From contig JAJFJT010000036.1 of NCBI GenBank assembly GCA_021773795.1, forward strand, positions 1 through 64,000: a DNA stretch of 64,000 bases, given 5' to 3'. The first letter of the stretch is position 1, and each line of letters opens with the position of its first letter. This document shows positions 16,378-60,821 of this stretch, piece after piece. The notes under the pieces were generated by a model. That model was given only the letters and a program-made list of their open reading frames with translations, was not told the origin of the DNA and did not search any database. Position numbers and translations under genes: made by a program. The DNA is from Gammaproteobacteria bacterium. GTDB lineage: Bacteria > Pseudomonadota > Gammaproteobacteria > HK1.

Positions 16378-16518
16378 AGGGTACCTCTAAAAATTCAAGT
16401 TTCCAGACAAGACAAGGCATGTTAAAAAAGTTGCGCGCGGCATATGGTTGATATGTAAGCGAAACTTTTTTTCGAGAAACGCCATATTGCGACGATAGTA
16501 TATTTTTAGCGGTGCCCT
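16378..16518 (+). repeat. Palindromic miniature repeat, family 1, copy 2
   Basis: 141 bp with ends AGGGTACCTCTAAAAA and (imperfect) TTTTTAGCGGTGCCCT. It begins only 11 bp upstream of the glnA -24 element, so it occupies the place where enhancer-bound NtrC would normally sit or loop across. Confidence 0.9.
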
Positions 16519-24837: not shown

Positions 24838-24841
24838 CTAT

Positions 24842-24983
24842 AGGGTGCCTCTGGAGATTCAAGGTTCGAAGCAAGACAGGGCATAAGTATAAAAGTTGAG
24901 CGCAGCATATGGTTGATATGTAAGCGTAACTTTTTTGCGAAAAATGTCGCATTGCGACGATCGTGTATTTTTAGAGGCGCCCT
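24842..24983 (+). repeat. Palindromic miniature repeat, family 1, copy 3
   Basis: 142 bp between the ends of convergent comEA-like and murU. It is the most diverged copy: the left end reads AGGGTGCCTCTGGAGATTC and the right end TTTTTAGAGGCGCCCT. The core GTTGAGCGCAGCATATG is unchanged. Confidence 0.88.
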
Positions 24984-25018
24984 GCAGTGTATACGGTCTG
25001 AGCTCTTTCTCGGTGGGC

Positions 25019-32793: not shown

Positions 32794-33249
32794 ATGCACG
32801 TAGATAAGCTCCTCACCCTGGAACGCACCCTTACCCAGGTGCACGCAAATAGTAAGAAAAAAGCTCTGGAAACTCTCAGCGGGATACTCGCTGAAGGCGA
32901 CCCCGAGCTAGGCTCACAGCAAGTATTTGATGCCCTGTTGGCACGGGAACGGCTGGGGAGCACTGGGCTGGGGGAGGGCATTGCCCTGCCCCACGCCCGT
33001 ATGCCCGAACTGAAACAGGCCATGGGCGCCTTTGTGCGACTAACCGGATCGATAGATTTTGATGCGCTGGATCATGCTCCGGTAGACCTGATGTTTGGCC
33101 TGCTGGTACCAGAAGACTCCACTAACGAGCACCTGGAGATCCTGGCCGAGTTAGCGGGCCGCTTTAGTGATGGAAAACTGCGGGAAAAACTGCGGGAATC
33201 CTCATCGACAGAGGAGATATATGCGCTGCTCAGTTCTTCAGAAAACTAA
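32794..33249 (+). CDS. ptsN: Nitrogen-related phosphotransferase EIIA-Ntr
   Basis: Regulatory EIIA protein of the PTS-Ntr system, 151 residues, with the phospho-histidine H67 in GEGIALPHARM. In other gammaproteobacteria it controls potassium transport and nitrogen responses. Its stop codon TAA (33247-33249) coincides with the first bases of a family 2 repeat that fills the gap to rapZ. Confidence 0.93.
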   Translation: MHVDKLLTLERTLTQVHANSKKKALETLSGILAEGDPELGSQQVFDALLARERLGSTGLGEGIALPHARMPELKQAMGAFVRLTGSIDFDALDHAPVDLMFGLLVPEDSTNEHLEILAELAGRFSDGKLREKLRESSSTEEIYALLSSSEN

Positions 33250-33327
33250 GGGAGCCTCTGATCTCTGATCTATTCGTGAACTCACATATCGTGCGCCCAA
33301 AATATCCGGAATGAATCAGAGGTTCCC
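33249..33327 (+). repeat. Palindromic miniature repeat, family 2, copy A (short)
   Basis: 79 bp with ends AGGGAGCCTCTGATC and TGAATCAGAGGTTCCCT. The interior contains GTGCGCCCAAAAT, which also occurs in the 169-bp copy B at 40444-40612 (on the minus strand), so this is probably a shortened derivative. It occupies nearly the whole ptsN-rapZ gap and ends seven bases before the rapZ start. Confidence 0.8.
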
Positions 33328-33333
33328 TAAGCA

Positions 33334-34191
33334 ATGAGACTTATAGTGGTAAGCGGGCTCTCGGGCGCAGGCAAGAGCGTCGCCATGCATGCGCTGGAGG
33401 ATCTCGGCTACTACTGCATCGATAATCTGCCGGTCAACCTGCTCCCAGCTTTTGCCGAAGAACTCAGCAAAGGAGAACAGCCACTACACAAGCGGGCCGC
33501 CGTCAGCATCGATGCACGCAATCCAGCGGCCTCCCTGCATGACCTTCCGGAGATCATTCAGACACTACGGACGGACGCCATCGTCAGCGATTTTCTGTTC
33601 ATAGAAGCAGATGATGACATCCTCATTAAGCGCTTTAGCGAAACCCGCCGAAAACACCCCCTGACCACTGACCAGATCTCCCTGGCCGAGGCTATCGGGC
33701 GCGAGCGCGAAGTGCTCTCTCCACTACGCCGCTGTGCTGATATCTGTATTGACACCAGCCGCACCAATCTCCACCAGCTGCGGGATCTGATGCGCCAACG
33801 GGTGGATCGGCGCCCCACCCAGCGTCTCTCGTTACTGTTTGAATCCTTCGGCTTCAAGCACGGCATACCCACCGACGCAGATATGGTTTTCGATGTGCGT
33901 TGCCTGCCCAACCCCTACTGGAATCCCGAGCTTCGCTCTCTCACCGGCCGCGCCCCAGAGGTTGCTAACTTCCTCTCGGCGCAACCCGAAGTGAAGGATA
34001 TGTATCAGCATCTGGAGACTTTTCTGGCACGCTGGTTACCCGAGTTCGAGGCAGATAACCGTGCCTACATGACCATTGCCATCGGCTGCACCGGCGGTCA
34101 ACACCGCTCGGTCTATCTGGCGGAGCGACTGGCAAAGCACTTTGGCAATGCACCCGCGGAGGTGCTGGTGCGGCATCGCGAATTATCCTGA
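33334..34191 (+). CDS. rapZ: RNase adapter protein RapZ
   Basis: Nucleotide-binding protein of 285 residues, known in E. coli to guide RNase E to the GlmZ small RNA. Walker [17 protein letters not shown] (8-15 core) at the N-terminus and the conserved [23 protein letters not shown] and [17 protein letters not shown] blocks in the C-terminal half. Whether the small-RNA role holds in this organism is unknown. Convergent with queC, overlapping by nine bases. Confidence 0.93.
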
Positions 34192-39735: not shown

Positions 39736-40410
39736 CTAAACGTGGGCCTGACGCTGGAGAATAGTAGAAAACTCTTCCACGAAGGTATCGTAGCGATCGG
39801 TCAGACGCTCCGCATCGTTGGCAAAGCGGTTATAGGCAATGACCGCAGGAATAGCCGCAAACAGGCCCATGGCCGTGGCAATCAGCGCCTCGGCAATACC
39901 GGGCGCCACCATTGCCAGGGTCGCCTGGTTGGCAGAGCCGAGGGCCCGGAAGGAATTCATAATGCCCCACACCGTTCCAAACAGCCCTACATAGGGGCTG
40001 GTGGAGCCCACAGTGGCGAGAAAGGAAAGGTGCAACTCCAGTTCATAGAGTTCACGCGCCAGGGTCACGCGCATGGCCCGGGCCGAGCCCTCAAGCACTG
40101 CCATGGGCTCCACATTGCTTTGCTGACGCAAGCGGGCGAATTCACGGAAACCGGAATGAAAGATCTTCTCCATGCCGTTGGACTCATGGGGTCGTTCATC
40201 GATCTGCTTATAAATATTGGCCAAGTCCTGGCCCGACCAGAACAAATCCTCGAAACGGTCGGCGGCGCGTTTGGCCTCACCGAGCACCGCCCGTTTACGG
40301 AAAATCATCATCCAGGAAACGAAGGACGCAGCGAGCAGTAACAGCATCACCAGCTGCACCAAAATGCTGGCGTTGCTGACGATTTCAATCAACGAAAGAT
40401 CGGCCTTCAT
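39736..40410 (-). CDS. tolQ: Tol-Pal motor protein TolQ
   Basis: ExbB-family subunit, 224 residues, three membrane segments (about 15-35, 130-155, 165-190), with LSFLATVGSTSPYVGLFGTVWGIMNSF and the AIPAVIAYNRFANDAERL motif. First of the tolQRAB genes; a family 2 repeat separates it from ybgC. Confidence 0.95.
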   Translation of the reverse strand: MKADLSLIEIVSNASILVQLVMLLLLAASFVSWMMIFRKRAVLGEAKRAADRFEDLFWSGQDLANIYKQIDERPHESNGMEKIFHSGFREFARLRQQSNVEPMAVLEGSARAMRVTLARELYELELHLSFLATVGSTSPYVGLFGTVWGIMNSFRALGSANQATLAMVAPGIAEALIATAMGLFAAIPAVIAYNRFANDAERLTDRYDTFVEEFSTILQRQAHV

Positions 40411-40443
40411 TCTTGAGACACCCTATTCATAGACTCAGACTCC

Positions 40444-40612
40444 TAAAGGAAGCTCTGATTTATTCTGGACGAAGTAGATTGTGATTCAAAATGCCCAGCT
40501 TTGAGGCGCTGCTCGCACGTAATAGTCGTTCTATTGTGAAGAGCAGCAACGATAAAGAGGGGCATTTTGGGCGCAAGATACGATTTCATGAATGGATCAG
40601 GGCTTCCCTTAA
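40444..40612 (-). repeat. Palindromic miniature repeat, family 2, copy B (long)
   Basis: About 169 bp with inverted ends TAAAGGAAGCTCTGATT and GGATCAGGGCTTCCCTTA. Two nested inner inverted repeats (AAAATGCCC/GGGCATTTT and GCTGCTC/GAGCAGC) make it nearly fully palindromic. It lies between ybgC and tolQ; its 40589-40612 end encodes the last eight residues of YbgC. Confidence 0.82.
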
Positions 40613-40999
40613 TTTGGCCAGCAGTTGCGGCGGGATGGGATGGGGACGCAAGGTATCAGCCTGCAGACAGGCTATGCGGACCTCGGCACGACACAGCACT
40701 TTGCCCGCCCGACAAATTTCCTGGCTTAAATTCAGGCTTACCCGGCGGCTATCCACTAAATGCACCCCCACCTCCAGTTCATCGTTAAAACGTGCCGGCA
40801 GCAAAAACTCTACGGAAATCTGCGCCACCGCAAACAGCACGGAACACTGTTGCCGCAGCACATCCTGCTCGAAGCCCAGGGCGCGTAACCATTCGCTACG
40901 TGCACGCTCCATGAAACAGAGGTAATTGGCGTGATAGACAACGCCGCCACAGTCAGTATCTTCGTAGTATATCCGTAGCGGCCAACTGAACTCTGCCAT
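40586..40999 (-). CDS. ybgC: Acyl-CoA thioesterase YbgC (Tol-Pal associated)
   Basis: Hot-dog-fold thioesterase of 137 residues. Active-site segment YYEDTDCGGVVYHANYLCFMERAR near the N-terminus with the catalytic aspartate. The last eight residues (LREALIHS) are encoded inside the adjoining family 2 repeat, which also supplies the stop codon. The ATG at 40999 is preferred over a GTG at 41011 that would overlap ruvB. Conserved first gene of the tol-pal operon. Confidence 0.92.
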   Translation of the reverse strand: MAEFSWPLRIYYEDTDCGGVVYHANYLCFMERARSEWLRALGFEQDVLRQQCSVLFAVAQISVEFLLPARFNDELEVGVHLVDSRRVSLNLSQEICRAGKVLCRAEVRIACLQADTLRPHPIPPQLLAKLREALIHS

Positions 41000-41003
41000 A
41001 TCC

Positions 41004-42041
41004 TCAGACACCGTCCGAAAACAGCTCGGGGGAGGCGTTTACCGCGGGTGGATTCAATCCAAAGTGCCGCCAGGCATGCTGGGTGGCCATGCGCCCTCGG
41101 GGGGTGCGCATGAGAAATCCCTGCTGGATAAGATAGGGCTCGATCACGTCCTCAATGGTTCCGCGCTCCTCGCTGAGGGCGGCGGCCAGATTGTCGACCC
41201 CCACCGGACCACCATCAAATTTTTTCAGGATGGCTAACAACAGCTTGCGGTCCATGAGGTCAAAACCGGCATCATCCACCTCCAGCATCTCCAGCGCCTG
41301 CTGAGCGATTTCCTGGCTAATCCGACCCTCACCCTCGATCTGGGCATAGTCACGCACCCGCCGCAATAGCCGATTACAGATCCGTGGCGTCCCCCGCGAA
41401 CGGCGTGCAAGCTCTGCCGCACCAGCATCCGAAATCTCGATTTTCAGCACCCCGGCGGACCGCAAGATAATGTGCTTTAACTCCTTTTCATCGTAAAACT
41501 CCAGTCGCTGCACAATGCCGAAGCGATCCCGCAAGGGTGAGGTGAGCAGGCCCGCGCGAGTGGTGGCGCCAATGAGGGTGAAGGGTGGAAGATCCAGTTT
41601 GATGGAGCGGGCGGCAGGACCCTCGCCGATCATGATATCGAGCTGAAAATCCTCCATCGCCGGATACAGTATTTCCTCCACCACCGGGCCAAGACGGTGG
41701 ATCTCGTCAATAAAGAGCACATCATGAGGCTCCAGGTTGGTCAACAGGGCGGCCAGATCGCCCGGCCGCTCCAGCACCGGCCCCGAGGTCTGACGCAGCG
41801 CCACCCCCAGTTCATTGGCCACAATATGGGCAAGGGTGGTCTTGCCGAGGCCCGGAGGACCGAAGATCAGCAGATGATCCAGCGCCTCACTACGACCCGA
41901 GGCAGCGGCCATAAAAATAGCCATCTGCTTGCGCACCCGCTCCTGGCCCACATAATCCGCCAGTAACCGCGGCCGCATGGAGAGTTCGACCAGGCGTTCC
42001 TGATCACTGGAATCACTATCGATCAGACGTTCTGTTTCCAT
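41004..42041 (-). CDS. ruvB: Holliday junction helicase motor RuvB
   Basis: AAA+ branch-migration motor, 345 residues. [18 protein letters not shown], Walker [13 protein letters not shown], Walker [10 protein letters not shown], sensor GATTRAGLL and arginine-finger [14 protein letters not shown], winged helix at the end ([16 protein letters not shown]). The ATG at 42041 overlaps the ruvA stop. Confidence 0.97.
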
Positions 42042-43996: not shown

Positions 43997-44136
43997 AGGG
44001 CGCCTCTAAAAATTCAAGTTCCCAGGCCAGACAAGACATGTTAAAAAAGTTGAGCGCAGCCTATGTTTGATATGCGAGCGAACTATTTTGCGAGAAACGC
44101 AGTATTGCGACGATAGTGTGTTTTTAGAGGTGCCCT
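43997..44136 (+). repeat. Palindromic miniature repeat, family 1, copy 4
   Basis: 140 bp, ends AGGGCGCCTCTAAAAA and TTTTTAGAGGTGCCCT, 15 bp upstream of the def start. The inner arms GTTAAAAAAGTTGAGCGCAG and GAGCGAACTATTTTGC show the same layout as other copies with several substitutions. Confidence 0.9.
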
Positions 44137-49761: not shown

Positions 49762-49903
49762 AGGGTACTTCTAAAAACTCAAGTTTCCAGGCAAGACAAG
49801 GCATGTTAAAAAAGTTGAGTGCAGCATATGTTTGATATGTAAGCGAAACTTTTTTGCGAGAAACGCCGTATTGCGACGAAAATGGTATTTTTAGAGGTGC
49901 CCT
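49762..49903 (+). repeat. Palindromic miniature repeat, family 1, copy 5
   Basis: 142 bp with ends AGGGTACTTCTAAAAA and TTTTTAGAGGTGCCCT. The inner arms AAAAAAGTT and AACTTTTTT flank GCATATGTTTGATATG, so a transcript would fold into one long hairpin. Lies 38 bp upstream of the bioA start. Confidence 0.9.
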
Positions 49904-57368: not shown

Positions 57369-57651
57369 CCGCACCCAGGGATATCGATAAACACGGGAAC
57401 TTTGCCCAACAGCGGCCCTCTAACTCAGCGAGTGCCACCCCCATGGCGTTCCCCGTCCTCCCTCCCTGGACGGGAGCCCCGCCCGACACCCCAGTCGGGC
57501 AATTCCTCACCCCGGGCATCGCCTGTCCCCTGATAGGCGACCCGGGGTTTTTTTTGGCTAGGCACTTTGGTTGACCACCTTGGCAAACTGCGATTAAATA
57601 CCTCGCTTGCCCAGCCCACTACTCGCCACCCAGGAACAGGAGATCCACCAA
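57369..57651. other. Intergenic stretch with terminator
   Basis: No gene in about 280 bp. It contains GGGCGGGG-type repeats in the first half, the terminator at 57509-57555, and presumably the cytochrome promoter after it. Confidence 0.6.
57509..57555 (+). terminator. Strong rho-independent terminator
   Basis: A long stem ACCCCGGG-CA-TCGCCT pairs with AGGCGA-CCCGGGGT around a ten-base loop, followed by a run of eight T. It insulates the M48 protease from the cytochrome genes. Confidence 0.92.
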
Positions 57652-60787: not shown

Positions 60788-60792
60788 ACTGT

Positions 60793-60821
60793 CGCACTCC
60801 CAAAAGTCAGAGGTTCCTTAG
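60793..60821 (-). repeat. Remnant end of a family 2 repeat
   Basis: GCACTCCCAAAAGTCAGAGG followed by TTCCTTAG matches the right end of copy A (TCAGAGGTTCCCTAAG) and the CGCCCAAAA that precedes it. It fills the gap between convergent genes and provides the TAA stop of the rhodanese gene (60818-60820). Confidence 0.5.

Follow-up and report, generated by a model that had tools for sequence, protein, structure and literature searches.

Why does the ybgC gene of this gammaproteobacterium (GTDB lineage HK1) stop inside a mobile repeat, and do other genes end at this repeat for the same reason? We examined a window of 64,000 nucleotides (positions 1 to 64,000 of contig JAJFJT010000036.1) together with the rest of the genome and two congeners, which we refer to as G001 and G002. 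A sequence-only reading of the window had proposed that copies of the repeat end ybgC, ptsN, and a rhodanese gene, either because the repeat inserts preferentially near stop codons or because its built-in stop is tolerated there. We base the names ptsN, rapZ, ybgC, tolQ, and rhodanese on Pfam families, on the names in that reading, and on gene order. Protein ends are written below up to the stop codon.

The ybgC gene (40586-41011, minus strand) encodes a protein that ends with PQLLAKLREALIHS. Its last codons on the minus strand are TTA AGG GAA GCC CTG ATC CAT TCA TGA, so by translation the C-terminus is LREALIHS. Copy B of the repeat is a full-length element of 160 nt at 40448-40607 (minus strand; 180.6 bits with the covariance model, and aligned with 27 other copies), and its left end, in the orientation of the model, lies at 40607 and makes the end of ybgC. 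In the 27 bases that encode the new C-terminus and stop (40586-40612, minus strand), 22 belong to the element (the TGA, the codons for S, H, I, L, A, and E, and the third base of the R codon AGG), four are target duplication (40608-40611, the first two bases of the R codon and two of the L codon), and one, at 40612, belongs to the old gene. The sequence-only reading had assigned the last eight codons and the stop to the repeat. The overlap and the TGA stand, but eight codons are slightly too many, as R lies partly and L wholly outside the element.

The site is empty in both congeners, where ybgC ends with ...GGAATTCAGGAGTCTGAGTCTATGA (EFRSLSL) in G002 and with ...AAATTCAGGAGTCTGAGTCTATGA (KFRSLSL) in G001. 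Comparison with relatives that lack the repeat had been suggested as a check, and for ybgC it bears the claim out: both congeners end with FRSLSL, which differs from LREALIHS, so the stop does derive from the element. The old 3' end persists as a relic beyond copy B (GGAGTCTGAGTCTATGA on the minus strand, 40427-40443), and these same 17 nt form the end of ybgC in both congeners. The distance from the ybgC stop to the tolQ start is 175 nt, versus 16 nt in both congeners. Judging from these alignments, the insertion of copy B removed the last residues and the stop of the old ybgC and substituted element codons. The target duplication on the ybgC side of copy B reads CTTA on the plus strand (40608-40611), drifted from CTRA (the empty site in the congeners has CTGA), and on the tolQ side it reads CTAA followed by one extra A (40443-40446). 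That these two copies of the duplication are unequal (CTAA plus A versus CTTA) counts against our explanation. The Pfam 4HBT_2 match in YbgC stops at residue 134 of 141, which puts the element-derived tail at the boundary of this domain, and the C-termini of five YbgC homologues from other genera are variable.

The repeat is a non-autonomous element of 157-166 nt with ends GGAA[GC]CTCTGAT and with flanking 4-bp YTAR duplications. We built a family model from 27 full-length copies. The 2.56-Mb genome gave 58 unique nhmmer matches, partial ones included, and 43 full-length copies among those that were extracted. With up to two mismatches, the end pattern has 88 matches in this genome, versus 13 for the reversed pattern. 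Counted by strand, the covariance model has 105 matches in this genome, 77 in G001, and 18 in G002; palindromes score on both strands, so the copies are fewer. Across all the fetched loci, nhmmer gave 106 unique matches, of which 89 are full-length (43 from this genome, 38 from G001, and 8 from G002). These copies were drawn from 39 fetched places in G001 and 8 in G002, so copy totals are lower bounds. The survey of 89 copies leaves aside 17 partial matches, including copy A (see below), as well as the solo end at the rhodanese gene.

Mean pairwise identity is 84% among 28 full-length copies, in an alignment that includes a few flanking bases. Of the 89 copies, 22 have the same 4-mer on both flanks, as compared to a mean of 8.2 and a maximum of 17 after shuffling, and YTAR is present on at least one side of 59 copies. 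In the other 67 copies the flanking 4-mers are unequal, which counts against our explanation, and because of this we infer that many copies are old. The family is short and multi-copy, lacks a transposase gene, and has a 4-bp YTAR duplication, as is characteristic of MITEs derived from the IS5 group. We also considered a structured regulatory RNA. Copy B has strong predicted folding (-55.5 kcal/mol, z = -6.9), and we dropped an RNA function for the repeat since covariation is almost nil (double changes in 2 of 34 predicted pairs), as expected for a palindromic MITE; there was no Rfam match at the repeat.

Evidence as to what moved the repeat comes from a full insertion sequence at a locus from the scan of named genomes described below (L115, 1659-2853). 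It is 1,195 nt long, it has CTAG on both sides, and its ends (GGAAGCTCTGAT... and ...GGAACCTCTGATTTATTC) are shared with the repeat. Its 321-amino-acid product matches PF01609 (1.4e-31) and PF05598 (1.6e-21). Terminal repeats common to the repeat and to this full element are what would be expected of an IS5-type family member, and on these sequence grounds the repeat is best read as an IS5-type MITE. We take its parent to belong to the subgroup known as the IS5 group. The repeat resembles the insertion sequences and MITEs of the IS5 family (presumably the IS5 group) in its 4-bp YTAR duplication and in sharing terminal repeats with a full insertion sequence that has both PF01609 and PF05598. 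Unlike the insertion sequences, it has no transposase, and only a decayed relic is present in its own genome. This relic (C30:107477-108579, at L222) is a frameshifted IS5-type transposase gene whose ends are of this type but degenerate, and it is the sole relative of the L115 transposase that we found in this genome. No intact transposase of the L115 type was found in this genome, G001, or G002 (draft assemblies), and G001 and G002 gave no match at all to this type of transposase, which counts against our explanation. A transposase of the IS5 type would have acted in trans on the repeat, duplicating 4-bp YTAR sites, and would since have been lost or have decayed. An excerpt of PMC10359306 gives YTAR as the target duplication motif of IS5.

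The same junctions can be read in another register, with TA as the duplication, R...Y as the outermost bases of the element, and TA again. The repeat would then be an IS630-type or Correia-like MITE that duplicates TA, and the targets of RUP do contain TA, according to part of PMC2229807. Duplications of the four bases YTAR are a better fit, given the extended flanks and the empty site in the congeners, and we dropped TA-only duplication. Also, the product of the full insertion sequence is a DDE_Tnp_1/DUF772 transposase, and PF13358 has no matches in this genome. We consider an IS630-type origin to be highly improbable.

Ends of this type are not limited to these three genomes. When we scanned named genomes for the end pattern, the matches listed included many metagenome-assembled genomes and some isolates, mostly labelled as proteobacterial. 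Where ends were paired, the matches listed included elements that are 158-162 nt long and have YTAR-like flanks in several of these genomes; two of the loci, L117 and L121, are from G001. Salinisphaera sp. Q1T1-3 has 273-nt elements (L113, L155, L156, and L180) whose ends are of this type and perfect, and each of these has a stop-free frame of 74-86 codons over most of its length. The window itself contains five copies of a second palindromic family of about 140 nt with ends GGG[CT]RCCTCTAAAAA (1844-1984, 16379-16517, 24839-24988, 43998-44135, and 49763-49902, all found by matching the end pattern, with one end only at 24839-24988). The end architecture of this second family resembles that of an IS5-type MITE, as far as the sequence indicates. 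Separately, positions 57450-57555 (plus strand) match the Rfam family anti-hemB (RF02837, "Burkholderia RNA 7") with 50.2 bits, versus a gathering score of 49.5 bits.

The other gene ends in the window differ from that of ybgC. Copy A (33250-33326) is an internally deleted copy of about 77 nt (77-78 depending on the boundaries used) between ptsN and rapZ, which we identified from the sequence and from matches to the repeat ends. Its target duplication is CTAA, found at 33246-33249 (plus strand) and again at 33327-33330, directly before the ATG of rapZ at 33334. The TAA at 33247-33249 is the stop codon of ptsN and is probably native: in G001, where the element is absent, ptsN (SASED) also ends with TAA at this position. 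In G002, ptsN has a TAG stop and then an apparent degenerate element end, at the position of copy A (L108). The insertion between ptsN and rapZ may be earlier than the split of this genome from G002.

At the rhodanese gene, the stop lies inside a CTAA that is followed by GGAACCTCTGAC and by extra bases that are absent from G002 (60788-60821, minus strand). This is probably a decayed remnant whose partner end is absent, the alternative being a chance resemblance. In both congeners the gene has a C-TAG stop; that of G002 (ETG) matches in codon position, and that of G001 (ETGA) is one codon further on. We found no recognizable repeat end at this gene in either congener; the GAAGG after the stop in G001 is too short to judge. 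Because congeners without a recognizable element stop at the same codon or one codon off, the stops of ptsN and of the rhodanese gene are, from these comparisons, most likely native rather than supplied by the repeat.

This conflicts with the sequence-only reading, in which the TAA of both genes was the first three bases of the repeat. The junctions read CTAA-G-GGAGCC at ptsN and CTAA-GGAACC at the rhodanese gene, so the TAA belongs to the target site, as the TAR of YTAR, and not to the repeat. The literal repeat end that had been given (TAAGGGAACC) is absent from the window, and it has only matches with one mismatch (3, versus 2.83 expected by chance). For these two genes, the comparison with relatives goes against a repeat-supplied stop, as the stops persist without the element (TAA for ptsN in G001, and C-TAG for the rhodanese gene in both congeners). 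That three of three ends terminate genes was a miscount. The window has at least five ends: the left end of copy A (at the ptsN stop), its right end (before the rapZ ATG), the right end of copy B (at ybgC), its left end (upstream of the tolQ start at 40410), and the degenerate solo end at the rhodanese gene. Two of these are beside gene starts.

Similar cases occur outside the window. We named the hemL-, cdsA-, dxr-, and fabH-like genes from the appearance of their proteins, and these names should be taken as our assumption. At the fabH-like gene (L044), the element sits on TTAG; both congeners are empty and have a stop at the same codon, either TAG or TAA. Another junction stop (L047) is ambiguous, with GQT here versus GQPQP and LKAV in the congeners.

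Does the repeat seek out stop codons? A genome-wide survey of distances to stop codons had been suggested, and we performed it on the 89 copies, with genes called by a home-made scorer of ORFs by codon usage rather than taken from a curated annotation. In 18 of the 89 copies (11 in this genome, 7 in G001, and none in G002), the TAR of the junction, or a drifted form of it, is exactly the stop codon of a called gene. As the background, we used YTAR sites that are at stops or are not wholly coding. Among these, 16 of 84 sites in the window (0.190; p = 0.79) and 72 of 494 sites in the flanks of the copies (0.146; p = 0.13; overlapping flanks count a few sites twice) are stops. If the junction may be up to three bases off, then the count rises to 22 of 89 (p = 0.18 versus the window and p = 0.010 versus the flanks). 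The result depends on the threshold for calling genes. At thresholds of 6, 12, and 20, Fisher's exact test gave p = 0.77, 0.20, and 0.007 for all 89 copies and p = 0.16, 0.022, and 0.0004 for the 59 copies with YTAR, and odds ratios for these six variants ranged from 1.1 to 3.5. At all three thresholds, no called gene extends across a whole copy (0 of 89).

These numbers could indicate an active preference of the transposase for stop codons or for the 3' ends of genes, beyond its need for YTAR, for instance because of local structure or of access that is coupled to translation. The excess is clearest at threshold 20, with 17 of 89 junction stops versus 54 of 614 in the background and with 15 of 59 among YTAR-intact copies; the looser junction count is also above the flank background. 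However, for all copies the odds ratios fall to 1.5 and 1.1 at thresholds 12 and 6, and the rate of 18 of 89 (0.202) is close to the window background. We suspect that the background is too low under strict calling, since real genes are lost. Also, a stop codon may shield its own TAR from drift, which would bias the YTAR-intact subset. Overall, we view an active preference as rather doubtful. The choice of YTAR as a target, together with the purging of copies from coding regions, accounts for most of the gene-end pattern, and a modest extra enrichment at stops is possible. Thus, the insertion preference that had been suggested is largely the YTAR target (0.202 versus 0.146-0.190), with a modest excess in some of the variants. 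In the literature that we searched, we found no paper that ties YTAR to stop codons.

The other suggestion, that the element's built-in stop is tolerated, holds for a minority of copies. In 7 of the 89 copies (at thresholds of 12 and 20; 8 at threshold 6), the reading frame of a gene runs on into the element and ends there. We compared four of the seven supplied tails, that of ybgC among them, to the congeners, and all four differ from both of them. For example, the tail of the hemL-like gene is RLRSL versus GLK and KLK, and that of the cdsA-like gene is GILRKL versus ITDL and FTGL. At L058, the tail is ESLIYSGRSRL versus TTKQI in G001 and GLGKL in G002, and in G002 both the GKL with its stop and the downstream sequence are element-like. 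The orthologues of this gene are of interest in themselves. In G001 (L297), KQI and the stop are followed by GGAACCTCT, a degenerate end, and in G002 (L298), which ends with GKL, the usual TGA of the element reads TAA. All three genomes thus have the element, or a degenerate end of it, at this gene end, each in its own register; the cause could be either several insertions or a single old one with later drift.

When the consensus is preceded by YTAR, all three reading frames are closed within 22 nt at its left end and within 37 nt at its right end. The stops are the TAR itself, the TGA at nt 9-11 (giving LGKL or LRKL), and a further TGA, which at the left end lies at nt 20-22 (REALIYS or KEALIYS) and at the right end at nt 35-37 (...EALIYSGRSRL). 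Selection might have shaped the ends to stop all three frames, as a built-in terminator cassette that softens insertions into gene tails. Among base-shuffled elements, 2.5% have stops in every frame this early at both ends, and the TGA at nt 9-11 lies within the terminal repeat that is common to elements from other taxa. Against this, the TCTGA sits in a terminal repeat that is presumably recognized by the transposase, which would account for its conservation, and a chance of 2.5%, computed after the fact, is weak grounds for claiming selection. Stops in all frames are also described for other small elements, in parts of PMC2229807 and PMC6382973. Selection for such a cassette seems unlikely to us.

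Our preferred explanation, in which we have high confidence, is that the repeat is a MITE mobilized by a transposase of the IS5 type, with duplication of YTAR, that the stops at its ends are mostly native, and that the ybgC tail is derived from the element. Its transposition is read from comparative empty sites, as at ybgC, at ptsN in G001, and at the fabH-like gene. Because YTAR contains TAA or TAG, an element that lands on the Y-TAR of a stop codon would leave that stop intact, as we propose for ptsN, for the fabH-like gene, and probably for the rhodanese gene. If it lands near the 3' end of a gene in another register, then the ribosome would enter the element and stop at the TGA at nt 9-11, with a tail of RKL or GKL, or else at the TGA at nt 20-22 or 35-37, with a tail of xEALIYS or xEALIYSGRSRL; ybgC would be a case of the TGA at nt 20-22. 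Any concentration at gene ends beyond that due to the target site would reflect the purging of copies within genes.

More speculatively, an IS5-type end plus YTAR might be a translation-terminating module, with TAR closing one frame and TGA the other two, that colonizes the tails of genes in operons and rewrites their C-termini with RKL, EALIYS, or EALIYSGRSRL. The tails or the inter-cistronic hairpin could even be useful. If so, the element would be spreading within important operons (ybgC-tolQ, ptsN-rapZ, and the cdsA-dxr-like pair), although we would not bet on this module.

Repeats that behave in part like this one have been described. According to excerpts of PMC5896051, QMITE1 and QMITE2 of Coxiella burnetii sit where functional genes end and supply C-terminal residues, and the authors state that they do not know why 3' ends are preferred. 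They are MITEs at gene 3' ends that provide C-termini, as here, but are a different element. MITEAba12, as described in part of PMC6382973, is likewise a short MITE with stops in all frames; it is ascribed to a co-resident insertion sequence, and it has fused one gene to 31 of its bases; unlike our repeat, it has 9-bp duplications and other ends, and that fusion makes the protein 398 amino acids shorter. RUP and Correia elements (excerpts of PMC2229807) are repeats of about 107-155 bp, with stops in all frames in RUP and in the 155-bp form of Correia, but the target of RUP contains TA and it is assigned to an IS630-type transposase. C-termini supplied by MITEs have thus been published already, and this repeat is another element of that sort.

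What the repeat offers is a testable reason for the apparent liking of small bacterial transposons for gene ends: the preferred target includes a stop codon. It also indicates that native C-termini can be exchanged for transposon-derived ones in genes that are expected to be important, which bears on gene annotation and on how differences in C-termini between species are viewed.
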